DNA of 23,035 nt. Origin: a virus. A program made the translations under genes and the position numbers. Shown one piece after another: positions 1,071 through 18,828 of this stretch (the first letter of the stretch is position 1; the number at the start of each line of letters is the position of its first letter). The stretch lies in the IMG/VR virus record IMGVR_UViG_3300046683_000154, positions 1-23,035 of that record. One strand, given 5' to 3'. Under the pieces are notes generated by a model. That model saw only the letters and a list, made by a program, of their open reading frames with translations. It was not told the origin of the DNA and ran no database searches.

Positions 1071-1654
1071 CAGCCTTCTCGATAGTATTCTTCTTCGATG
1101 GCCCGGTGATCCATGTGGACCGTCCAGAGAACTTCAGTCAAGCCATCAGCCGGGAATGAGGATCCCCCACCCTCGTCCCCGTACTGCTTGTACAGAACGT
1201 TGGCTGTCTCACGCAACTCCTGGGCAGTGAGTGAAGTGTCCCGCGTGACAGTTCCCATTGTGCTCCCGCCGCCCATCGTCTCGCGCATCGCGATCTTCGC
1301 AGCGTCAGCAGCAAGTGAGAGGAGAAGCTTGACAGCCGCGAGGGTCACGCTGCTGCCTGAGTCGTCGATGAAGTACTGAACCTCCTCGTCGGAGAAGACA
1401 GCCCAGTAGTACTGGAAGATGATGTCAATGCCCTGACCGGGAGCGACGAAGAGGGTGACAACCCCATCTGTGCGGAGGACTGAGTAGTTGGTGTTCTCTG
1501 AGAGAGAAACCCCATTCACCCAGATGATTAGACCACTAATGATCGGGGCATGACCCAGCTTGTAGATAGTGGTCGCGCCATCTCCTGTAGCCGTCTCCCG
1601 CTCGATCTGGCTCTTATCTCCGGTCTTTAGGCGGACTGCATCTATATCGTTCAT
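1070..1654 (-). CDS. Putative head-tail connector/adaptor
   Basis: A 194-residue protein that starts at ATG 1654, overlapping the stop of the large fibre gene by ATGA. Residues about 28-85 are a beta-rich segment (TIYKLGHAPIISGLIIWVNG). Residues about 100-125 form an alanine/leucine helix (AAVKLLLSLAADAAKIAMRE) of the kind seen in gp6/gp15-like head-tail adaptors, where a short helix follows an acidic start such as DDSGSS. The C-terminus is acidic and hydrophilic (AIEEEYYREG). I infer that it docks on the portal ring and begins the connector. The beta-rich N-terminal half is longer than in the simplest adaptors. Family membership would need a profile search. Confidence 0.65.
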   Translation of the reverse strand: MNDIDAVRLKTGDKSQIERETATGDGATTIYKLGHAPIISGLIIWVNGVSLSENTNYSVLRTDGVVTLFVAPGQGIDIIFQYYWAVFSDEEVQYFIDDSGSSVTLAAVKLLLSLAADAAKIAMRETMGGGSTMGTVTRDTSLTAQELRETANVLYKQYGDEGGGSSFPADGLTEVLWTVHMDHRAIEEEYYREG

Positions 1655-4600
1655 CCGCCCCTCCGAGGCTTAGTAGAACCAAATGCGCTTTGGTTGTTCT
1701 TGTCGGATGACTGGCTGGTACGCCCGAAGTCATCCTGATTGGTTTGATGGGTAGTCTTGTCCGGCTGGGCGAAACCAGAACGGTCTTGAACCCAGTTCCA
1801 CACAGAGGATGTGGCCCTGAAAGCTTCAGTTGCCAGTACGCCAACCGGTTGGATTACGCCTGACAGAATCTTGGCGGTTGTCCTGCGGACTGTGCCCACA
1901 GGGAGCATAGATCCTATCAGAGTGATGCGCCGGGGCTGCTGTGGGGCCACAGAACCTACCGACGTGACCGTCCCTGTGATGGTCTTAGATGTCCTCTGGC
2001 GTACATCACCAGTGGGGACCAGTGTCCCTGCCAGTCTGGTAATTGGTCGTTTGATAACGGACCCGACTGACGAGATGGCCCCGGTCAAGATAAGGAGCTT
2101 AGTTCTGGTAGCTAGTAGAATTCCGGTCGGTGTAATGGATCCGGTCTTGACTGAGGCGATCTTCTTAACGATCAGACCAGTTGACGGGACCGTGCCAGTC
2201 TTGGTTGCTAGTGACTTCCTAAGCAGGGCACCAGTGCTGTTGATGGATCCTGCCAGTGGTAGAAGAGCAACCTTAAGAGCTGCGGCCGTTCCAGTCGGGG
2301 TGATGTTGCCAGTCAAGATCCTGGCTAGGGCGCGCCTAACTGCAACAGTTCCTGACGGGGTGACAGAACCAGTCAAGATCCTGGACAGAGAGGATCTGAT
2401 TGTGAGGACACCGGACTGGGTGACAGCTCCTGTGAAGAACCGAGCCGTCCGCTTGATCACGGTCCCGGATGTGGCGATGGTTCCAGACAGGGATAGCAAA
2501 GCAACCTTGAGCGGGATCATCACCCCAGTTGGAGTGATAGATCCAGTCAAGATCCTAGAGAGGGAGCGCCGGATCGAGAGGGTTCCCGCTGGCGTGATAG
2601 AACCTGTCAAGATCCTAACCAGAGAACGCCTGATCGAGAGAGTTCCTGAACTGGTCACTCCACCGGTCAAGATCTTCTGATTGAACTTGACCAAAGCTCC
2701 AGAGCTAGGGGCTGTGCCAGTCAAGATCTTCTTATCGGCTTTGATCAGTGTACTAGAACTAGCGACGGAACCCAGGAGAGTCTTGAGATCTTTCTTGGCG
2801 AGGAACCCAGAGTTGGAGATGGATCCCAGCTTGAAGAGGTTGGACTGGCGAAGAAGAACCCCTCCCGGTGACACAGAACCGGTGAGGGATTTTGTGTAAC
2901 CAACCCCAGCTCCGGATGATATGCCCGCCGTGTAGTGGGCAGAAACTCGAGTGCTTGACAGGACACTACCGTAGACGGCCACCTCGTCGATGACGCCGTT
3001 GAGCTGCTGGATCGAGGCGTTCGCTGCGATCAGCAGCGGCGCGGTCTGGAAGCTGACGGTCAGCGTTCCGGTGTAGATCAGGGTGCCGTCGAGGTAGACC
3101 TTCGTGCCGTTGGTGACGCCGCTCTGGAACGTCTGCACCGCATGGTGACGTGCCCCATCTGCTGGGAAGACGCCGGTGCCGCGCCACGCAGTGGCGGTCC
3201 AGTCGTAGTAGCCCAGCTCGCCGTCGTTGAGCAGCAGGCTGTAGGCGCCCTCCTTCGTGGCGATCGACCGGAACGCCGTGCCGGGGCTGGAGGTCTTGAA
3301 CCAGGCCTCGACCGAGCCGGTCCCGACCTGTATCACCGATGCGTTGCCGACATCCACCCACTGCGACGTGCCGTTGAAGGTAACCGCTGTGTTTGAATCC
3401 CCAGCAAGTAGACCAATTGATCCCAGGGTTGGGCTGCCGATGTAGGTGCCCGTGTTGCCGTTGCCACTGCTATCGTTCGCTGTGGTACCAGAAGGCTCTC
3501 CCAACCTCCAGTAAGCCGCTGGAGTATCCGTGAAAACAGCAGCCGCATAACTGGTCGGAGGATTGATGGCTGGAGTGGTAGTTAAGAACCCAGCCGGCGT
3601 GTTAGCTCCGGTCTTGGTTACTAGATCCTTCTTGGACAGGAACCCGGTCGGGATGCCAGCAGATCCAGTTTTGACTACCAGATCTCTCTTGACCAGAAGT
3701 CCAGTAGGAGTGGAAGCTCCGGTCTTAACCGCGCTACTATTCTTGATTAAAGCTCCAACTGGGGACACAGAGCCAGTAGCTGATTTGAGGTAGGTAGTGC
3801 GAGCAACTGCAGATCCAGTGGGAGTAGCTCCACCAGTCTTGGTGACAGCATCCTTCTTGATAAGAAGTCCAGATGGGGTGTTGGCCCCGGTCTTAGTGAC
3901 AGCTTCAGCCTTGATCGCCACTCCGGAAGAAGTAACAGCCCCGGTCTTAGTTGCTAGATCCTTCTTGATCAAAGCCCCGACTGGGGTCATCGCCCCCGTG
4001 AGCGTCAGGGTGTAAGTAGTTGTGTTCGTCTCGCCGTTGGGACCGACGGTCTTGTACGGATGTCCAGATGGCAGCGAGGCAACGGTTCCATATCGCCACG
4101 CGAGCCAGCCCTCAATCGACTGGCGATCTGCGGTTGCTAGTGCAGTCTGATAGACGATGATCGCGTGGAGGTCGCCCTGTGGGGCATCTCCTGGATCGTT
4201 CGTCTTACCGACGTAGTGGCCCCACTGGTCGATGGCGGCGGCACTGGAGCTCGTAGCACCGGTCGCTCCATCGCGCCTACCTGTGACGCTAGTTCCCGAC
4301 CAAGTTAAGTCTATCAGGGTCAGCGCGCCGTTGACAAACGAACCAGATGAGTCTCGAACTGCAAGAGAACCGCCGGCCCAGTACTCGAGCAAATCACTGG
4401 CGATGAACAGTCCGGTGCTGGAGTCAAGAGCCCAGAGCGCGTGCCACGCCTTAGCAGCAACATTCAGGCGGAAGACCGCGAACACGGTCATGCCGGTTAG
4501 ATCTGGACGTAACACAGGAGAGGCTGCTGAGTTAGTCAGCGTGTCGTCGCTACCATCGAAGCGGACGCCACCGCGAGCACCTGCGACTGCAGTTTTGTAG

Positions 4601-5913
4601 ATCGGCTGGGCCGTGCTGACCGATGTGAAGGTATACCCGTTACCTGACAGATCAGGCCAGGATGCAACTACGGATCCGTCAGTCTGGGCCAGCGAGTCAG
4701 CATCTAGCCAGAGTAGAAGTCCAGCCTCGGCCAGTGGGTTGTAGGTGAAAATGTTCTGGCTGAACTGGATCCAGGTATCGCCCGAGGCGCCCGCGGATGT
4801 CCCGGCGTAGAACAGGGTGCACGTGAGGCCAGTTCCCATGACCCCACTGGCCTGTGTGATACAATCATCAGCGTAGATTCTGATCCGAAGACGTTGTCCC
4901 GCAGTGATAGATGTATCTGGGCCAGAAACATAGAGCACCTGGGCTGACTCTGTGGTTCCAGGCTCGGTCGAGGCTGTGGCGGCGCCCCAAACTACTGGAC
5001 TTGTACCGTCGCCAGCAACGACTGCAACCTCAACCCGGACAGAGACGTTCGCAGCAGCCGAGCTCTCTAGCATCCGGATGTTGCACTTGGCGATACCGCC
5101 CAGGGTTTGTGCGGGTAGCACGTCGCTGAACCAGTCAACAACAGTGCCACCCGCTGTGTCCGTCATCTGCAGCGGAGCTGTCGGGCCTGCTGCAGTGTTT
5201 CGAACGTCGGTCTGAACCCCGGCCCCTCGAGAGGTTGAAGCCACTCGATCTACCGATGCAGTAGCAACGGCGGATGCCGTGTCCGTTAGATAAAGGGTTG
5301 TTCCAGCAGGCGTGGCATACGCACTAGCGAAGATAAGGTTCTCGGTGAGTGTGAAGTACGAGTCACCGGACGCAGCAGCGGTCGGCCCGTCGTACACGAA
5401 CGAGAAGTTGAAGCCGGTCGCCATCGTGCCGGCATCTCGGCCATAGACACGAACCCGCAACCGGTCGCCACGCTTACAAGCTACACCAGCAGCGGGAGTC
5501 TCAGCGAAGTTGTTTACCGCCTGCCCAGAAGCCACCTCCGTGGTCCGGGCTGTCTGATCGATAAGAGTGACGGCGCCGGTCGCGCCATCAACTTTCTCGA
5601 TGATCGCGTTGATTGCGACGTTGGCGCTCAGGCTCGACTCGAACGCCCTGAGGTTCCAGGTGATGGACCCGGCGATTGTTACGTCAGCTCCGAGAGGAAG
5701 TGAGTACCAAGCGTGAGGCAAGCTACCCGTGATCATCTCGAGGCCGTTCGTTGGCCCTGCCACGGTCACCGTGTTAGCAGTGGCCGCAGCTGCGCCTCGC
5801 GCGGTCGATAAAGCTCTGACGTCCCAGCCAACCGCCGTTCCATTCAGCTTCGCGTCGTTGTTACCGCTCGAGTAGTCGGATGTTAGTGCCCTGAAGTAGA
5901 GCGTTGTCGCCAT
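1651..5913 (-). CDS. Large repetitive fibre/adhesin with two LamG-like lectin domains
   Basis: A 1420-residue virion protein. Residues about 1-195 and 196-392 are a duplicated domain; the copies end in matching blocks ASGDSYFTLTENLIF and ASGDTWIQFSQNIF. Residues about 395-625 are a first concanavalin/LamG-like domain (LLWLDADSL, WPDLSGNGY, RFDGSDD). Residues about 633-780 hold eight 17-21 residue repeats of the type KTGxxTPxGLLxKKDxVT. Residues about 785-1003 are a second LamG domain (AAYWRLGEPSG, NDSSGNGNTGTY, TVTFNG-like core, IDEVAVYG). Residues about 1005-1370 hold about nineteen repeats of the type LTGSITPTGxLxxRRxLxRI. The last 50 residues are rich in Gln, Asn, Ser and Asp. LamG domains bind glycans, so host-surface or mucus-type sugar binding is likely. 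Because the gene lies between capsid and connector genes, a head fibre is as possible as a tail fibre. Confidence 0.9.
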   Translation of the reverse strand: MATTLYFRALTSDYSSGNNDAKLNGTAVGWDVRALSTARGAAAATANTVTVAGPTNGLEMITGSLPHAWYSLPLGADVTIAGSITWNLRAFESSLSANVAINAIIEKVDGATGAVTLIDQTARTTEVASGQAVNNFAETPAAGVACKRGDRLRVRVYGRDAGTMATGFNFSFVYDGPTAAASGDSYFTLTENLIFASAYATPAGTTLYLTDTASAVATASVDRVASTSRGAGVQTDVRNTAAGPTAPLQMTDTAGGTVVDWFSDVLPAQTLGGIAKCNIRMLESSAAANVSVRVEVAVVAGDGTSPVVWGAATASTEPGTTESAQVLYVSGPDTSITAGQRLRIRIYADDCITQASGVMGTGLTCTLFYAGTSAGASGDTWIQFSQNIFTYNPLAEAGLLLWLDADSLAQTDGSVVASWPDLSGNGYTFTSVSTAQPIYKTAVAGARGGVRFDGSDDTLTNSAASPVLRPDLTGMTVFAVFRLNVAAKAWHALWALDSSTGLFIASDLLEYWAGGSLAVRDSSGSFVNGALTLIDLTWSGTSVTGRRDGATGATSSSAAAIDQWGHYVGKTNDPGDAPQGDLHAIIVYQTALATADRQSIEGWLAWRYGTVASLPSGHPYKTVGPNGETNTTTYTLTLTGAMTPVGALIKKDLATKTGAVTSSGVAIKAEAVTKTGANTPSGLLIKKDAVTKTGGATPTGSAVARTTYLKSATGSVSPVGALIKNSSAVKTGASTPTGLLVKRDLVVKTGSAGIPTGFLSKKDLVTKTGANTPAGFLTTTPAINPPTSYAAAVFTDTPAAYWRLGEPSGTTANDSSGNGNTGTYIGSPTLGSIGLLAGDSNTAVTFNGTSQWVDVGNASVIQVGTGSVEAWFKTSSPGTAFRSIATKEGAYSLLLNDGELGYYDWTATAWRGTGVFPADGARHHAVQTFQSGVTNGTKVYLDGTLIYTGTLTVSFQTAPLLIAANASIQQLNGVIDEVAVYGSVLSSTRVSAHYTAGISSGAGVGYTKSLTGSVSPGGVLLRQSNLFKLGSISNSGFLAKKDLKTLLGSVASSSTLIKADKKILTGTAPSSGALVKFNQKILTGGVTSSGTLSIRRSLVRILTGSITPAGTLSIRRSLSRILTGSITPTGVMIPLKVALLSLSGTIATSGTVIKRTARFFTGAVTQSGVLTIRSSLSRILTGSVTPSGTVAVRRALARILTGNITPTGTAAALKVALLPLAGSINSTGALLRKSLATKTGTVPSTGLIVKKIASVKTGSITPTGILLATRTKLLILTGAISSVGSVIKRPITRLAGTLVPTGDVRQRTSKTITGTVTSVGSVAPQQPRRITLIGSMLPVGTVRRTTAKILSGVIQPVGVLATEAFRATSSVWNWVQDRSGFAQPDKTTHQTNQDDFGRTSQSSDKNNQSAFGSTKPRRGG
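1812..2900 (-). repeat. Second repeat array of the fibre gene (about 19 units)
   Basis: The DNA encodes about nineteen consecutive 17-20 residue units with consensus LTGSITPTGxLxxRRSLxRI. At DNA level the word CCAGTCAAGATCCT and close variants recur every 54-60 bp on the plus strand. Units 5-8 and 9-12 match as a four-unit block (ILTGSITPTG then LKVALL), showing a more recent higher-order duplication. Such arrays may expand and contract by recombination. Confidence 0.85.
3570..4015 (-). repeat. First repeat array of the fibre gene (about 8 units)
   Basis: Eight 17-21 residue units of the type KTGANTPSGLLIKKDAVT separate the two LamG-like domains. They are related to the second array by the shared TGxxxPxG core but carry Lys-Lys-Asp in place of Arg-Arg-Ser, so the two arrays have diverged separately. 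They probably act as a rigid beta stalk spacing the two lectin heads. Confidence 0.85.
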
Positions 5914-6769: not shown

Positions 6770-6985
6770 CTAATCCTCCTTCTTATCGTCGTCATCATCT
6801 CGGCGCTGACGTGGCCTCACTATACCCACCACATCGATGCCGACCATCAGAGCTACGATGCCCAGCAGCAGGGCCAGCGCGGCGAATGCGCGTTCTGGCT
6901 CCCGTAGTGTCTCGCTGGGGAATACCATCAACAACACAATTCCTGTTGCCAAAATCCCCGCGATGGCTGCCCGGGCAGATTCCAT
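6770..6985 (-). CDS. Small two-span membrane protein
   Basis: A 71-residue protein whose ATG shares one base with the stop of the glycosyltransferase gene (TGATG). Two hydrophobic segments are clear, about residues 7-23 (AIAGILATGIVLLMVF) and 34-57 (AFAALALLLGIVALMVGI). They are followed by a basic and then strongly acidic tail (RQRRDDDDDKKED). Two spans with a charged cytoplasmic tail fit a holin-like protein. However, no endolysin lies nearby, and coupling to the sugar enzyme may instead point to a membrane anchor or host-interaction role. Holin is only one possibility. Confidence 0.7.
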   Translation of the reverse strand: MESARAAIAGILATGIVLLMVFPSETLREPERAFAALALLLGIVALMVGIDVVGIVRPRQRRDDDDDKKED

Positions 6986-9960
6986 CAGGTCACCCTAGAT
7001 CCATCAAGGACTGATTGGAAGACGAACTGCTCCCACAGGGAGGCGATGTCAGACCAGCTCTTAGCATGGGCACCCAGCTTGATATCATCCCTGACGAATG
7101 GGCCAGGATCATTCTGAAGGAGAGTGATGACTGCATCTACGTATTGCTGGCGCACGTCCCGGTCACCAACGTTACCGTAGATGATAGTTGAAGGTCCATC
7201 GCCGATGGTTTCGGCCAAGGCTGCTAGGTTGTTAGTGACGGCGTGAAGCCCCGCCATCTGGGCCTCTACTGCGGAGATGCAGAAGGTTTCGTGGAAATAG
7301 GTCGGGTATAGCCAGATGCTAGCTCCCAGCAATTCTTTGGCAAGTGTCTGCTGAGTAACGCGGCCTCGGTTTGTGACGTTCCGTGTTGCCATTGAGAGCT
7401 CTGAGACTTTTCTCTTGAAGTCCTGGAGCTTCGGCGAGACACCGCTTGCCGCGTCGATATTGTTCCAGCCATAGAAGTAGTGGAGTTCAGCGTCAGGGAC
7501 CGCTTCGACAACCTGCGGCCAAATATGCTCAAGAATGACATCCAGGCCGCGGTCAGGACTAGAAGTGTAAACCACACGGTGGAGGTTACGAGGGAGATCC
7601 GCAGTGAAGTTCTCAGGAGTGACGCCATTCCCGATGACAAGGAACTTTCCTTCAGGGATGAAAGGATATGTCGACATCATATGTTGCTTGTGCCATTTGC
7701 TCAGGACTACGATCTTGTCGAAGACCTCAGCACGCTCACGAGTCAGGCGAGTTCCAGCATCCGTATCATGCATCCACAGGATGGTTGTGCCAGACTCGAG
7801 TTCCATGTCAGCTAGCTCTGGGAACCGCCAGGCGATAGTGATATCGCTCTTGACCTCGGGAAGGTAAGCGGTCAGATCGCGGTACCGGACTCCATCGTAG
7901 TAGCCCGGCGAGTCGATATCGTTGAAGACCGTGACCTGATACTCACTCTTGCTGAACTCTGCTGCCAGCTTGATGAGGGCTGTCTCAGATCCGCCGATAC
8001 CCTCGTTAACAAGCTTCTGAGGCCCCCACTTCTCAAGCGCCGGCGGGGCTACGAATGAGATGCGGGGGCCTCGAGCTCGAATTCCTGGAGTATAGTCAGC
8101 AAAGATCCAAGCACTGAGTCCCCACTCCTGACGATAGAGATTAGAGATCCTTCCCCGTGAGTTAAGCAGTTGCTCCATGTCAACTAGGTCGAAGATCCTA
8201 AGGTGTCCCTTAAGCTCTACCTTCTCCCAGTCCTCAATCTCGCCCCGCTCCCAAGCGAGATATGGAGTTGTGAGAACGACGTGGTCAGCGATCTTCTCTA
8301 CCGTCTCGAGAAGCTCCGCTGGGTCCACCACGTGTTCGATGGTTTCAAATAGGATGGCCAGATCGTATTTGTAGAAGTCCGCGCACTCCGCCCACTCGGA
8401 CACAGAAGAGATGGCTCCCTGTGTGAAGCCAGCTAGTTCCTTGAGTCCCCACTTCTCAGCCCGTTCGTTGGCGAGCTTGATACACCTGGGATCAAGGTCG
8501 AGTCCATCAACCTTGAAGCCAGCCTTCGCCAGCGGGAGGGAGATGAACCCATCCGAGCAGCCCAGATCTACCACGTTGTGGGCTCGAAGATCCTTAGCAA
8601 CCTTGTGTGCGAAGGCGAGCCGTGGGTAGGCCATCCAGTTCTCTGAGAGGATCGTCTCGTCTGGCATCGGTGCCCAGCCAGGATTGTTCACGTAGTGATC
8701 CGCCATCAGCTGGGGATCTTCGACGTGAGCTGTCATCTGCTGGACCTTGCCCCAGAGCTCGCGCACGCGCTCGTGAGTCTCGATGCTCTTCGGACACTGA
8801 GAGAAGAGAGCCCGAACCTTAAGCCACTCGTCGTTCCGAGCTAGATGCTCCACGAGAGCTAGGAAGTTCTTAAGGACCGCCTCGGTCCGGAGAACCTCCT
8901 TGATCCCAGTGATCTGGCCCAGCAGGGACGGGGTTGGCTGGATAGAGTAAGCCTGCTCTAGGTTCCCAAGGGCTTCGTCATATCGCCCGAGATTAGCGAA
9001 AGCGATGGACGCCGCGAGCAACGGATTGAAATCGTAATCCCGCGGGTTAATGATGAGGGAGGTGCGTGGAACTGGTCGAGCAAATCCTGTAGCGGTCCAC
9101 TCAACACAGGAGAGCCATTCTCCTCTTCGGAAGGCAACTTCGGCCAGTCCAAAGTAAGCATCAGGCCAATCTGGCTGGATGCGGATTGCTGCCATCTCCA
9201 TGCCAACGGCACGGTCCAAATCTCCGGATCGCCGGTAGAGTTCAGCCATGAGATGTGTAGCTTGGTACCGCTCGGCTGACCACTCAGCCCGTCCGATGTA
9301 TCGACGGAGATGGAGAAGTGCTTTCTCGTAGTTGCCATGGAGAGCCTCTTCGCTCCCTAAGTAGTGAAGGAGGCGCTGGGAAGGTTCGGGCTCGGACTCT
9401 TCGAGCTCTCGATAGAGGAGCTCCAGATTGCGAAGTCCCCGAACCTTGTGTTCCCCGTGGTGTCGGATCAGCACATCCTCTACCAAGAAGGGGTCGTGGG
9501 CCACGTCAGCCCGCAAGTACTCGTGGATCCGCCCTTCCCAGCGCCAGAGCAGGTCTGACCGCAGAACCCGCTCCCTTACAAGGAGAGAGGTTGTTCCACC
9601 CCCGCTCTCCCTGCTGTAGTCGTAGTACATATGAAATGCTCCGATCTTCGGATGCATCTCAATCTGCCTACGTAGATTTTCACCGCCAACTACCTCATCG
9701 TCCCCGTCGAGCCACATGAAGTAGTCGGGCTTGGCTGCGAGCTGGACATCCAAGACTCGGTTCCTTGCCTTGGCGAAGTCATCTTCCCAAGGGATAGTGA
9801 ACGCGATGTCTGCGTACTTCTCAGCGATGACCTGAGTGTCGTCGGTTGACTCCCCAGCCAAACCGATAACAACTTGGTCAACGTAAGGGCGGATGCTCTG
9901 AAGACAAGCTTCAAGAGTCGCACCCTCATTCCGGACAATCATGCCCAATGAAATCTTCAC
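6985..9960 (-). CDS. Multidomain enzyme: GT2 glycosyltransferase, TPR region, SAM methyltransferase, GT4 glycosyltransferase
   Basis: A 991-residue protein from GTG 9960. Residues 1-180 are a GT2-type domain (ISLGMIVRNEGATLEACLQS at the start, metal/sugar motif WLDGDDE at 83-89). Residues about 196-345 contain TPR-like helical pairs (YEKALLHLRRYI, YDEALGNLEQAYSIQP). Residues about 440-620 are a class I SAM methyltransferase with motif I VVDLGCSDG at 463-471 and the acidic GLDLDP at 486-491. Residues about 633-980 are a GT4-type domain with GGSET at 656-660, SSPDRGLD near 800 and an EX7E pair, E891 and E899. There is no signal peptide or membrane span. It probably builds a methylated sugar chain on a virion or cell-surface acceptor. 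Its location in the head-tail operon favours virion proteins as acceptors, which is an inference. Confidence 0.92.
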   Translation of the reverse strand: MKISLGMIVRNEGATLEACLQSIRPYVDQVVIGLAGESTDDTQVIAEKYADIAFTIPWEDDFAKARNRVLDVQLAAKPDYFMWLDGDDEVVGGENLRRQIEMHPKIGAFHMYYDYSRESGGGTTSLLVRERVLRSDLLWRWEGRIHEYLRADVAHDPFLVEDVLIRHHGEHKVRGLRNLELLYRELEESEPEPSQRLLHYLGSEEALHGNYEKALLHLRRYIGRAEWSAERYQATHLMAELYRRSGDLDRAVGMEMAAIRIQPDWPDAYFGLAEVAFRRGEWLSCVEWTATGFARPVPRTSLIINPRDYDFNPLLAASIAFANLGRYDEALGNLEQAYSIQPTPSLLGQITGIKEVLRTEAVLKNFLALVEHLARNDEWLKVRALFSQCPKSIETHERVRELWGKVQQMTAHVEDPQLMADHYVNNPGWAPMPDETILSENWMAYPRLAFAHKVAKDLRAHNVVDLGCSDGFISLPLAKAGFKVDGLDLDPRCIKLANERAEKWGLKELAGFTQGAISSVSEWAECADFYKYDLAILFETIEHVVDPAELLETVEKIADHVVLTTPYLAWERGEIEDWEKVELKGHLRIFDLVDMEQLLNSRGRISNLYRQEWGLSAWIFADYTPGIRARGPRISFVAPPALEKWGPQKLVNEGIGGSETALIKLAAEFSKSEYQVTVFNDIDSPGYYDGVRYRDLTAYLPEVKSDITIAWRFPELADMELESGTTILWMHDTDAGTRLTRERAEVFDKIVVLSKWHKQHMMSTYPFIPEGKFLVIGNGVTPENFTADLPRNLHRVVYTSSPDRGLDVILEHIWPQVVEAVPDAELHYFYGWNNIDAASGVSPKLQDFKRKVSELSMATRNVTNRGRVTQQTLAKELLGASIWLYPTYFHETFCISAVEAQMAGLHAVTNNLAALAETIGDGPSTIIYGNVGDRDVRQQYVDAVITLLQNDPGPFVRDDIKLGAHAKSWSDIASLWEQFVFQSVLDGSRVT

Positions 9961-9975: not shown

Positions 9976-10062
9976 TTATGACCTAGGACGAAGAACTAGA
10001 GGGATGGCCAGTAGGATGGCGATGATGACCAGCACGACTAGTTGCCAGTCTTGTACGCTCAT
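9976..10062 (-). CDS. 28-residue single-span membrane microprotein
   Basis: A short frame from ATG 10062 to TAA 9976-9978 encodes MSVQDWQLVVLVIIAILLAI followed by PLVLRPRS. An AGGAGG site lies 8 nt upstream (plus-strand positions about 10071-10077), as strong as any in the window. It has one hydrophobic span (residues about 8-24), a short polar N-terminus and a basic C-terminus, as in small inner-membrane proteins. It sits alone between the capsid gene and the sugar-enzyme gene. No homologue is recognised. Roles as a small lysis, signalling or membrane-recruitment peptide are all open. Confidence 0.7.
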   Translation of the reverse strand: MSVQDWQLVVLVIIAILLAIPLVLRPRS

Positions 10063-10084: not shown

Positions 10085-10136
10085 GTGGACACAGGGAGGT
10101 CGGGGGAGGAGCCGAACCAGTCCCCCCCGTGTCCAC
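10085..10136 (-). other. Stem-loop between capsid gene and downstream genes
   Basis: An 8-bp perfect inverted repeat (GTGGACAC at 10085-10092, GTGTCCAC at 10129-10136) encloses complementary G-rich and C-rich runs (GGGGGAGG against CCCCCCC). No T-run follows on either strand, so it is not a standard intrinsic terminator. It could attenuate transcription after the highly expressed capsid gene or protect its mRNA 3' end. One arm overlaps a CACAGGG word. Confidence 0.6.
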
Positions 10137-10147
10137 TGGGAAAGGCT

Positions 10148-11200
10148 CTACGGGACGATCGACCCGAAGACGAAGCGCCACTCCATCACCTTGAACGCGA
10201 AGTCATGACGGATCTTGTAGTAGATCTCGTCAAAGTCGAAGGAGTAGGGATCATCCCCACCCAGAACTCCACGAGAGTCCGGATCCTTCAGACCGAGGAA
10301 TGGAGTTGAGTTGCCGTTCAGGGTGATGTGAGCCATGAAGGCTCCACGCCCCTTCAGGTCGGCCGACAGATACCAGTTGTTGGTATCCGTGAAGTACGGC
10401 TCGGTGATGACGTTGGTGATGCGACCCTTGACCAGGTTGGGAATGTAGAGGTTCCCAGCCGTGACCAGAGTGTCGTTGTTCAGCAGCGTCTGAGCGATGT
10501 ACTTGTAGGCCGTGGGGATGATCAGCGTCCGACCCTCGGGACTGACGATCTTGTACCCCTCATCGTCAGTCTGAGCATCGAGCGCCATGTCCGCTGCGAT
10601 CAGCGCGTTCATGCCAGCCTGATCTGCCGTCAGGGCCGTCGTCCCGATGTTGCCATGGGCAGCCGAGAAGAGGGCGTTCCCGTCGAACGTGTTCGGGTTG
10701 GCCTGGAAAACGTTGATCGCGGCTTCCTTCGAGATGGTGCGAGCCATCGCCTCTGCGAACAGAGTCGGAAGCTCGGCCATCTTGTTCAGCCGATCGGAGA
10801 TGATGAGCTGACGAGTCAGTGAGAAGGCAGCGCCCCACTCACGGAGCTTGTACGTCGGCCCGGTGCCTTCGGCGATTGCCATTTCCTCGTAAGGACCGTT
10901 CAGCGGCTTCTCCGGGATGTCGCCGAAGCGCCCGAACCGACTGGACGTGTAGTCCTCGAAGTCATCGACCGAGAGATCTGACGTGTAGGCAGACCACTGG
11001 CCGGAGATCTCCGTGAACCGCTCGAGGAACGAATGCCGCAGGAACTTGCTGATGTACGTAGGGAAGTCCTGAGTGGACATCGCCTCTTCCGCACTCAGCA
11101 GACCATCAGAGGCCGCCTGGCGAGCTTGCATGTACGCTTCGAAGACGCGGAGCCGACGGCCGTTCGCCTCGAAGCCGAATGAACCCTGCTGGTAAGGCAC
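10148..11200 (-). CDS. Major capsid protein (HK97 fold, Mu gpT-like)
   Basis: A 350-residue protein starting at GTG 11200 with AGAGGAGG about 8 nt upstream, an expected strong site for an abundant protein. The N-terminal helix region (residues 1-45) is followed by the P-domain and spine helix sequence around residues 100-165. The LFSAAHGN signature at 177-184 is typical of the Mu gpT-like/major head subunit family. The C-terminal half is beta-rich, with KGRITNVITEPYFTDTNNWY and an ending DFAFKVMEWRFVFGSI. It directly follows the protease/scaffold and decoration genes, as in many phages. It forms the capsid shell. No separate scaffold gene is seen; the scaffold may be the C-terminus of the protease. 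Confidence 0.9.
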   Translation of the reverse strand: MPYQQGSFGFEANGRRLRVFEAYMQARQAASDGLLSAEEAMSTQDFPTYISKFLRHSFLERFTEISGQWSAYTSDLSVDDFEDYTSSRFGRFGDIPEKPLNGPYEEMAIAEGTGPTYKLREWGAAFSLTRQLIISDRLNKMAELPTLFAEAMARTISKEAAINVFQANPNTFDGNALFSAAHGNIGTTALTADQAGMNALIAADMALDAQTDDEGYKIVSPEGRTLIIPTAYKYIAQTLLNNDTLVTAGNLYIPNLVKGRITNVITEPYFTDTNNWYLSADLKGRGAFMAHITLNGNSTPFLGLKDPDSRGVLGGDDPYSFDFDEIYYKIRHDFAFKVMEWRFVFGSIVP

Positions 11201-15248: not shown

Positions 15249-16736
15249 TTAGGAGAGCGTGTAGGATGCTCGCTCATCCATTGTGTAGAAGTCTTCGATC
15301 TCCATGCCCTCTCGGGCGTAACCATCCTCGATGCGCATCTCGCCCATCAACTCGGCCATCGTGGCGGGATCAATCCCCTCCATCTCAACGTGAGGTTGGA
15401 CCTCGTTGAACATCTCAGGCCAGGTGTTGTAGTACCCGTACCGCAGAGCATCAAGTGCGTGATTGTCCGCGTCCACTGGGATCTCGGTTTTGTTCGTCTC
15501 GATGCGCTTGCGGCTGTCATCAGGGTAGTGATAAGTGCCGTGTTCTTTGATAAGATTCTTGCACACAGGGGAGATGAATATGCGTGGGATGATCAGCCCG
15601 GGGTCGTCGATGCCCCTCGTCTGTGGCATGATCGATCGGACGGGGTCGCGTAGGAACTTGTGATGGACCCTGATCCCGTCAGCAATCTTGGGCTTCTCCC
15701 CGCCCGCTCGCCACCCGTTCAGTCGCCAGGTTGCTGTCGCCTCCTGGGCTGCTCGGTCGACGATGACCTCAATCTCATCCTTGGGCATGTTCGTGTGCGG
15801 ATCCAGGAGGAAGGGCCACCGCTCCCGAGCTTCCTTGACGATCTGCTCAGTGACGCGGCCCGTCTTGTAGATCTCATCTACGATGTAGACATGCTCGTCA
15901 GGTGTGATTTGAACGAGAAGGCAAGCGTAGGGGGCCGTGGTCCCGGGATCGACCCACAGGGAGGTTCGTAGGTGCTCCTGATATTGGAGCGGTTTGACGT
16001 GGATTTCGTCACTAAACTCGGGGTAAACCAACCCGGCGTAAGCGATAAACTCCGCTTCCCATTCCTGTGCGAACGCCTCTGGGCTGGAGTTTCTCTTCGC
16101 GTCCAGGATCTCAGAGGCTGGCAGGATCGGGTTCCTCCTGCTGGGGATCTTCCAGGAGGCCCAATCCTCCTGCCCGGGATCCTGTCCCCGCTGGTAAAAG
16201 TCGTAGAAGTAGTTAAACCCTCGGGGGGTTGATGTGAAGAGGGCCTTGCCCTGCCGATCCGCCAGTGCTGGGCGGAGGTACTGGTCCCATGTGCGGAGCT
16301 TGAGGCGTGCTGCCTCTGCCACCACGATGAGATCGAGGCCCTCCCCAATGAGCTGGTCCGGGTTCTCCTCAGACCGGCACTCGATGTGGGTGCCATTCTC
16401 GAACTGGATGAAAAGCTCCCTCTCCGACTTGCGTCGTACGGGGATAGCTTTCTTTGTGATGGTGTGTTTCCAGACTTCCCGGAATTCTTTTTCCGCAAGA
16501 TCCATCGTCGGGCCGACAACCCAGACGTAAGAGTCCGGGATCATGCACTGTGCAGTGGCTTCCCGCCCTCCGAGGACTGACTTCCCGATCCGCCGACCCC
16601 CGTCAACTACCCTAAACCGGGCTGTCGACTTGTGAACTTCCCTCTGATAGTCGAAGGTCGCCAGGTTCAAACTCTGGAAAATCTGGGCCTTGACCGCTGT
16701 TGACAACAACTGTGATCTGCTGGAGGAAGCTGTCAT
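15249..16736 (-). CDS. terL: Terminase large subunit
   Basis: This is the DNA-packaging motor. Counting from ATG 16736 (495 residues), the ATPase has Walker A GGRRIGKS at 46-53, Walker B LDLIVVAEA at 134-142 with catalytic Glu141, and coupling motif STPRG at 169-173. The RNase H-like nuclease has acidic residues Asp263 (WVDPGTTAPY), Asp327 (VIVDRA) and the pair in DADNHALDALRYG near 422-434. The frame is open to an upstream start at 16796. I prefer 16736 because MTASSSRSQ is nearest the conserved region, but neither has a good ribosome site. Either way the gene overlaps the small subunit by at least 125 nt, an unusually long overlap. Confidence 0.93.
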   Translation of the reverse strand: MTASSSRSQLLSTAVKAQIFQSLNLATFDYQREVHKSTARFRVVDGGRRIGKSVLGGREATAQCMIPDSYVWVVGPTMDLAEKEFREVWKHTITKKAIPVRRKSERELFIQFENGTHIECRSEENPDQLIGEGLDLIVVAEAARLKLRTWDQYLRPALADRQGKALFTSTPRGFNYFYDFYQRGQDPGQEDWASWKIPSRRNPILPASEILDAKRNSSPEAFAQEWEAEFIAYAGLVYPEFSDEIHVKPLQYQEHLRTSLWVDPGTTAPYACLLVQITPDEHVYIVDEIYKTGRVTEQIVKEARERWPFLLDPHTNMPKDEIEVIVDRAAQEATATWRLNGWRAGGEKPKIADGIRVHHKFLRDPVRSIMPQTRGIDDPGLIIPRIFISPVCKNLIKEHGTYHYPDDSRKRIETNKTEIPVDADNHALDALRYGYYNTWPEMFNEVQPHVEMEGIDPATMAELMGEMRIEDGYAREGMEIEDFYTMDERASYTLS

Positions 16737-17256
16737 ACTTCTCTTGGCCCTCCCCTGTGTTGACCACAGGAGTTCTGCCGCCCTGTGAAGTGCCAACTAC
16801 ACGGTCAAAGATGCGAACCAGGTCCATGACCTCTAGGTTCTTGATGTTGTTGTCTGCAACCAGCTCCGAGAACCGGTTCAAAATGGCCCCGTGGACCTGA
16901 TTGGTCAGCTTCTCTCGAAGCTCTAGGACTCGGGATCGGAAGTCGGAGTCGGTCATGTACTTCCGAATCTGCCGGTCACTGACCCCCGCCTTCGCCCCAG
17001 CCATTTCGTAAGTTCCGCCACAGGCAATGATCGTTGCTGCGATCTCCTGATGCGCGCGAAGGGATGCGTACTTGACGCGCTTCCGCGTGGCGTAATCGCT
17101 CCGGATCTGGTCGAAGTCTAGATCACCGTCGTCTGGTGCGATGATGTCCAGGTTGTCGTCCACCACCTGCAGCTTGCGCTGGATCTGAGGGGTGACGTTC
17201 TTGATCTCTCTGGGGTGATGTGGAATCTCGCGCTGCTTCTTGTGCAGAACGTCCAT
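16612..17256 (-). CDS. terS: Terminase small subunit
   Basis: A 214-residue protein starting at ATG 17256 with AAGGAAG about 4 nt upstream. A helix-turn-helix lies at residues about 70-110 (QEIAATIIACGGTYEMAGAK, then GVSDRQIRKYMTDSDF), the DNA-recognition layout of small terminases. It is followed by an oligomerisation-type helix region. The C-terminal 40 residues are acidic and flexible, and likely contact the large subunit. It recognises the packaging site, which may lie in the structured non-coding DNA just upstream. Its first 134 nt also overlap the preceding frame. Confidence 0.85.
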   Translation of the reverse strand: MDVLHKKQREIPHHPREIKNVTPQIQRKLQVVDDNLDIIAPDDGDLDFDQIRSDYATRKRVKYASLRAHQEIAATIIACGGTYEMAGAKAGVSDRQIRKYMTDSDFRSRVLELREKLTNQVHGAILNRFSELVADNNIKNLEVMDLVRIFDRVVGTSQGGRTPVVNTGEGQEKYDSFLQQITVVVNSGQGPDFPEFEPGDLRLSEGSSQVDSPV

Positions 17257-17821: not shown

Positions 17822-17967
17822 AGCTTCTGCCTCAAGCTTGGACCCGAAACTAGGGCGTTTCGCCAATAGCTTAGCTGTGAGCTTTGCCTGGCCAACCTCT
17901 CAGTTCTAGACACAAGAACTGAGAAGTTAGTTGCATGAGCTTCAGGTCCAAGCTTGAGGGAGAAGCT
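17822..17967. repeat. 27-bp imperfect inverted repeat with central hairpin
   Basis: Arms at 17822-17848 and 17941-17967 are complementary at 25 of 27 positions; the core CCTCAAGCTTGGACC (17830-17844) is perfect against 17945-17959. The 92 nt between them hold a perfect 10-bp hairpin (TCTCAGTTCT at 17898-17907, AGAACTGAGA at 17915-17924, 7-nt loop). The left arm ends just before the ribosome site of the 17806 gene. It could act as a mRNA leader structure, operator or packaging/recombination site. Confidence 0.75.
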
Positions 17968-17971
17968 TGTT

Positions 17972-18009
17972 CCACATCTTCCTCATCCCACAGGGGTGAG
18001 TGGATGTGG
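17972..18009. repeat. Hairpin carrying a CACAGGG word in its loop
   Basis: Outer arms CCACATC (17972-17978) and GATGTGG (18003-18009) enclose inner arms CTCA/TGAG and CCC/GGG around an ACA loop. The stem is interrupted only by short internal loops. No T-run follows, so it is more likely a protein-binding or RNA-structure element than a terminator. Confidence 0.55.
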
Positions 18010-18096
18010 TTCGGATGACTCCAGCTTGGAGAAGTTGTCAGTCAGATGACTGGGAAGCTTGTCCGATGAGCTTCCTGTGGATTTGAAGTCAATAAC

Positions 18097-18643
18097 TTCA
18101 TGTCCGTACACATAGTACCACATGAAGATCGAAGAGTCAAGGAGGCAAGTTTAAAATAATTGAAACCTCAGCTACTCACTTCGAACATTTTAGATGTGAG
18201 AGGCTGTCGAATGAAAGATGGTAAACTAAATTGATCGAAGGAGTGAGCTTCGAGTCAAGCTTATTATCAAGCTCACTGCCAAGCTCAAAGTCAAGCTTCT
18301 CACCAAGCTCAAAGTCAAGCTTGTGGTCAAATCTCCCATAAAATCTTCAGAATAAGCTTCAAGTAGCCTAGTAGTAGTGAGTAAAATGAGCTCTAAATGA
18401 AGCTTTTTGGTCAGTTTTTATGTCAGTTTTTACTCAGTTTTGAGGCCAAAGCTCACTCCAAAAGCTCAAAATACAAGCTCGAATTTTAAACTTCAGCTTC
18501 TCTTAGACACTTTAGATGTGGGAAAATGTTGATCGAAGGCTCTAGTTTTGGCTTCAATCTCTTCCTAAAATCACATCAAATCATCTCAAATTAGATGTCA
18601 AATCTCCCCTATTCTAAGGCCAAAACTAAAATACGGACATGAA
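18097..18643. repeat. 12-bp perfect inverted repeats bounding the AT-rich region
   Basis: TTCATGTCCGTA at 18097-18108 and its exact complement TACGGACATGAA at 18632-18643 flank most of the AT-rich segment. A pair of this length is unlikely by chance in 550 bp. The first copy lies where transcription from the candidate promoter at 18112-18140 would start, so it may be an operator. They may also be ends of an inserted segment. Confidence 0.5.
18112..18140 (-). promoter_or_regulatory. Candidate sigma70 promoter for the packaging/head operon
   Basis: On the minus strand TTGACT (18135-18140) is followed after 17 nt by TACTAT (18112-18117). The -35 matches consensus at 5 of 6 positions and the -10 at 4 of 6. 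It would give an approximately 300-nt leader containing the large inverted repeat before the first gene at 17806. Confidence 0.45.
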
Positions 18644-18828
18644 TATTCGCCAGACAGACACCGTGAAGTCACTGATGTGCCTTCTAGGTCCTCTCAGGCC
18701 ATCTCTGGCATGGCGTCAAGGGTCACACAGGGCGTGAGGATGGGCCTAGGGTAAGCTTCATCCAAAATTGGCTTACATCTTTCGTGATGGCAACATAGGC
18801 TTGCCCCCGCCGACCGCGCGGGGAATCA

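Follow-up and report, generated by a model that had tools for sequence, protein, structure and literature searches.

The window, as we call the whole stretch of DNA analysed here, is a 23,035-base viral record that carries a set of phage head genes and, immediately downstream of the major capsid protein (MCP) gene, one long gene joining two glycosyltransferase (GT) domains, a TPR region and a methyltransferase (MT) domain. The relevant features, all on the minus strand, are as follows, with the evidence in brackets.

15249..16796, minus strand: terminase large subunit (Pfam, phage profiles)
13480..15231, minus strand: portal protein (phage profiles)
11587..12627, minus strand: head maturation protease (phage profiles)
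11216..11587, minus strand: 123-aa protein upstream of the MCP, present in most relatives; a candidate decoration protein
10148..11200, minus strand: MCP (PF25209, NF045541-like), immediately upstream of the fusion gene
10085..10136, minus strand: strong RNA hairpin just past the MCP stop codon, with no recognised U-tract
9976..10062, minus strand: 28-aa hydrophobic open reading frame (ORF) with a single TM-like segment, between the MCP and fusion genes, AGGAGG upstream (sequence)
6985..9960, minus strand: GT2-TPR-MT-GT4 fusion gene, 991 aa (ORF, Pfam, alignment, AlphaFold2 model)
9436..9960, minus strand: GT2 (GT-A) domain, residues 1–175 (Pfam, alignment, profile comparison)
8725..9432, minus strand: TPR helical region, residues 177–412 (Pfam, model, profile comparison)
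8077..8661, minus strand: class I SAM methyltransferase (MT) domain, residues 434–628, motif I VVDLGCSDG (Pfam, alignment, model)
7006..8067, minus strand: GT4 (GT-B) domain, residues 632–985, GGSET and E891-x7-E899 (Pfam, alignment, GT4 tree, Foldseek)
6770..6985, minus strand: ORF of 71 aa containing two hydrophobic stretches; the start codon overlaps the fusion gene stop (TGATG) (sequence)
1651..5913, minus strand: 1420-aa fibre-like virion structural protein with a lectin-like Laminin_G_3 domain (Pfam, phage profiles)

An earlier sequence-only reading of this DNA had described a four-part sugar enzyme encoded among virion structural genes. Profile searches bore out both the surrounding head genes (MCP, protease, portal and terminase) and each part of the enzyme. 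The gene is one uninterrupted frame with a GTG start and zero internal stops, and every domain of its product was matched by at least one Pfam profile above cut-off: Glycos_transf_2 at residues 4–103 (33.3 bits against a cut-off of 23.3), TPR_14 and TPR_2, Methyltransf_23 at residues 455–603 (52.2 bits against 27) and Glyco_trans_1_4 at residues 803–950 (37.5 bits against 27). The Pfam profile PF00534 scored slightly under its cut-off (25.7 versus 26.4 bits). The four motifs named in that reading were all present in the translation, with WLDGDDE at 83–89, VVDLGCSDG at approximately 463–471, GGSET at 656–660 and the EX7E pair at E891-x7-E899.

Alignment of 15 sequences showed that the GT2 residues W83-D85-D87-D88, W139/W141 and H146-E147 are invariant. 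The first domain is assigned to GT2 by its profile score together with invariant D85-x-D87-D88, the last to GT4 by Glyco_trans_1_4 together with invariant E891 and E899, and the MT domain to the class I SAM methyltransferases by its profile score and by motif I, which is conserved across the window clade. An AlphaFold2 model built from the 15 aligned sequences had a mean pLDDT of 88 but a pTM of 0.64, so the domain folds are reliable and their relative placement is not. Judging from sequence and model, the enzyme appears to have no obvious membrane segment.

The MCP and fusion genes lie on the same strand, separated by 187 nt that contain the hairpin (−33.4 kcal/mol, z −3.6). A scan of this gap found no terminator-like and no promoter-like site, which makes co-transcription of the two genes plausible. 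The 28-aa ORF within the gap has a good ribosome-binding site; in most relatives the gap does not leave room for such an ORF.

The same gene was found in other phages. A single-protein scan of IMG/VR gave no relative, and a distant DNA search among phages with the head region found nothing. An IMG/VR scan with the MT-GT4 part as query recovered 15 contigs (L088–L102) that carry the gene with 48–52% identity over that part; we count 14 as distinct because L090 and L091 are identical in scores and lengths and are apparently the same phage. In relatives whose contig is long enough, the frame encodes a single protein of 988–1069 aa (contig ends truncate the genes of L100 and L102), and the alignment shows conservation of the catalytic motifs. 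The fusion follows directly after the MCP in all 14 loci that have upstream sequence, at 49–106 nt from the MCP end to the aligned enzyme start in most, at 297 nt in L094 and at 483 nt, with one small gene between, in L096. Most relatives also have a hairpin in this gap, with a different sequence. The gene order (terminase, portal, protease, small protein, MCP, fusion enzyme) is kept, and the MCP linkage holds while the genes downstream of the fusion vary. In the close pairs tested, pN was far below pS in every domain, by an approximate Nei-Gojobori count in which synonymous sites were often saturated. The domains are thus maintained under purifying selection, and the fusion is a real conserved gene rather than a chance joining.

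We found the same activities in different arrangements in other phages. A tree of the GT4 domain separated the four-domain clade (support 100/99) from a GT2-TPR-GT4 clade without MT (99/98) and from a clade that has MT-GT4 as its own gene, with GT2-TPR encoded nearby (98/94). L109 also has the four domains but is distant and falls outside the main clade, one phage contig encodes a permuted GT4-MT-GT2 fusion (L113:2199-4970), and L112 has a degenerate MT-like segment. The genes of the MT-less proteins come after phrog_1328 MCPs, in most cases separated from them by one or a few small genes, and the split GT2-TPR and MT-GT4 forms lie approximately 1–4 kb downstream of phrog_1005-type MCPs. Because these forms also lie downstream of MCPs, the same activities are tied to three MCP families, as profiles separate them. 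We considered that L009 might be a fusion interrupted by an insertion and dropped that explanation, since other split loci show that the two-gene form is stable across its clade. Among deposited phages, such a fusion of two GTs is present in three Manatee Spring podoviruses of equal length (MW202524, MW202718 and MW202743), with the protein named ‘beta4glucosyltransferase’. Like the window protein, theirs is a single GT2-TPR-GT4 chain (28–36% identity over the shared parts) and lies one small gene after the MCP; in contrast to it, their chain lacks the MT, with two separate MT genes further down, and its GT4 has EX7K. In these podoviruses the enzyme is the first in a larger cluster of GT and MT genes. 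EX7K replaces EX7E in the GT4 of most MT-less relatives (L002, L007, L010–L018 and L023), and EX7E is kept in the window clade, L009 and L005; the exchange may reflect a different donor. Other phage chains with several GTs were GT17-GT2-GT4 (L025:7670-11071, 1133 aa) and GT2-GT4-GT2 (L008:3825-7166, 1113 aa).

We compared the parts of the enzyme with characterized proteins. The nearest profiles to the GT2-TPR half were GmaR (E 5.5e-29), SunS (2.6e-23) and 7msk ThuS (1.2e-18), and Foldseek aligned this half to SunS/ThuS with E of approximately 1e-15 and TM(target) of 0.54–0.61. GmaR, a Listeria flagellin O-GlcNAc transferase, and the glycocin S-glycosyltransferases SunS and ThuS share with the window protein a GT-A domain followed by TPR-like helices, by sequence as well as fold, and all three have polypeptide substrates. 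A GT2 domain joined to TPR helices and related in sequence to proven polypeptide GTs places the window protein among GmaR/SunS-like enzymes, although it has an additional MT and GT4 and falls far below the cut-off of the SunS family itself (TIGR04195, 28.6 versus 350 bits). The TPR part of GmaR has been proposed to recognise flagellin (PMC9638930), and that of FlmG was shown to bind its flagellin substrate (PMC7591256). The MT domain resembles UbiG, WbdD and the mycofactocin oligosaccharide methyltransferase MftM, far under the family cut-offs where these are given.

Two precedents resemble the locus more broadly. For the type B flagellin of C. difficile, GT1 adds GlcNAc and an MT-containing GT2 adds two rhamnoses, which it is proposed to methylate (PMC5207246). 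As in the window, the GT genes adjoin a gene whose product is abundant and self-assembles, and a GT2-family initiator is followed by extension and proposed methylation; that locus differs in being bacterial, in using separate proteins and in extending with a GT2-family enzyme rather than a GT4. A flagellin gene also lies beside the GT2-TPR gene in at least 3 of 50 bacterial loci, a minimum because our flagellin screen used a crude pattern. One of the three is the Thermoanaerobacterales locus L078:6597-9905, where a GT2-MT-GT2-TPR protein of 1102 aa adjoins the flagellin gene. The second precedent is mycobacteriophage Corndog, in which an O-methyltransferase gene and three GT genes lie between portal and protease (PMC4351075), likewise within the structural operon. 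Corndog, Che8 and Myrna have glycosylated proteins (PMC12363180). These phages encode GTs and carry the glycan on a capsid or tail protein, as proposed here, but theirs are separate genes, and a tblastn search of the phage collection with the window protein gave no match to any of the three.

We think it likely that the fusion is a single-chain glycan-building enzyme that decorates a phage head protein in late infection. The TPR region would dock the polypeptide substrate, GT2 would use a nucleotide-sugar to attach the first sugar to a side chain (Ser/Thr, or less likely Cys), GT4 would lengthen the chain by at least one sugar, and the MT would O-methylate a sugar, possibly stopping extension. 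This assignment of initiation to GT2-TPR, extension to GT4 and methylation to the MT follows the analogy with C. difficile type B flagellin; we infer the order of the steps, their chemistry, the identity of the sugars and the biological benefit. Since related phages keep the gene at the same place, the enzyme probably puts a short methylated sugar chain on the phage particle. GT genes lying within the structural block and kept among relatives, as we found here, are what virion glycosylation predicts. It is the best-supported interpretation, drawing on kinship with polypeptide GTs, constant MCP linkage, purifying selection and the precedents of Corndog and C. difficile. The core of the sequence-only reading, a methylated glycan on a virion protein, thus stands on the same grounds. 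Co-transcription and immune hiding, two details of that reading, are unsupported, as is an actinobacterial host: relatives of the terminase and MCP share less than 60% identity in every case and come from many hosts.

Virion glycosylation is already known, as is a capsid operon with individual genes for GTs and an O-methyltransferase (Corndog). What appears to be new, within the scope of our searches, is the conserved combination in one chain, encoded behind the capsid gene. Our estimate is evenly balanced for the wider proposal that one conserved polypeptide is a self-contained synthase that initiates, extends and methylates a phage-head glycan, its parts being split, permuted or MT-less in unrelated phages yet still tied to capsid genes. 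To our knowledge, few phages are proven to have glycosylated particles. If the proposal is true, a single-chain family that keeps its place behind the capsid gene across many uncultured phages would suggest that capsid glycosylation is far commoner than known, and the compact enzyme would be useful for studying substrate choice, chain length and methylation.

The most likely target would be the MCP or the decoration protein. Across 12 genomes, enzyme distances track those of the head genes (r 0.85–0.92), as expected for a gene inherited with them. With the other head genes controlled, the partial distance correlation between enzyme and MCP was −0.03, indicating no MCP-specific link, and the values for protease (0.54) and portal (0.38) were larger. 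Without additional MCP correlation, the candidates stay the MCP, the decoration protein, other head proteins and the fibre. Glycosylation of a tail fibre or other tail protein, a variant of virion glycosylation, is the alternative that we take most seriously, though we consider it unlikely. The 1420-aa protein with its lectin-like domain is encoded further downstream on the same strand, and tail tube subunits are among the published glycan carriers of mycobacteriophages (PMC12619734); however, linkage to the MCP persists among relatives whose downstream genes differ.

The MT domain could also have a role other than the one proposed, either structural or in methylating side chains of proteins. 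Some phages do without it, as the MT-less proteins and the degenerate segment of L112 indicate, but its conserved motif I and its low pN relative to pS in the window clade, together with the presence of sugar and small-molecule O-methyltransferases among its related families, make this improbable.

GTs are also used in DNA hypermodification, and we therefore tested DNA glycosylation. The enzyme might glycosylate and methylate modified pyrimidines in phage DNA, such as 5hmC made by a phage thymidylate synthase (TS)-like hydroxymethylase, and so guard against restriction. Four of the five long fusion-carrying relatives, all in the window clade, encode a PF00303 protein:

L115:3475-4251, minus strand: thymidylate-synthase-like gene (PF00303)
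L116:2888-3667: thymidylate-synthase-like gene (PF00303)
L117:3296-3994, minus strand: thymidylate-synthase-like gene (PF00303)
L118:2859-3545: thymidylate-synthase-like gene (PF00303)

The best solved relative of the L115 protein, the one tested, is a CMP 5-hydroxymethylase, and by our reading it has Asp at the TS Asn177 position, so modified cytosine in the DNA of the L115–L118 phages is possible. No second gene matching PF00535 or PF00534 was found in the five long relatives. Glycosylation of DNA bases would pair a hydroxymethylase with the GT across the family, but PF00303 had no match in L094, in the window fragment or in any of the 14 records with MT-less, split or degenerate enzymes; these records and L094 indicate that the enzyme family is independent of the TS-like gene. 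In addition, the GT2-TPR kin act on polypeptides, and the gene follows the MCP rather than lying among replication genes. A DNA role thus has some support in the window clade and fits the wider family poorly, and we regard it as very unlikely. As separate observations, L115:508-3036 (minus strand) encodes an 842-aa protein that combines DNA polymerase A with a 3'-5' exonuclease and, at the N terminus, a uracil-DNA glycosylase domain; genes for a dUTPase and the TS-like protein lie nearby. In L117 the TS-like gene is next to one for a dCMP deaminase.

Serotype conversion is a common role of phage GTs, and small hydrophobic ORFs flank the gene on both sides, but modification of host surface glycans or a host protein (for superinfection exclusion or receptor change) is a similarly remote prospect, given an enzyme that seems to lack a membrane segment, a fixed MCP linkage that such a role would not lead one to expect, and no PF00589 integrase in the five long window-clade records, which makes lysogenic conversion less likely.

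Searches of the window for Rfam families and tRNAs gave none. An ORF-poor segment at 17914–18722 (GC approximately 47% over 18–19 kb) contains direct repeats at 12 bp spacing (AAGCT-type) and inverted repeats, and is possibly an origin, packaging or regulatory site.
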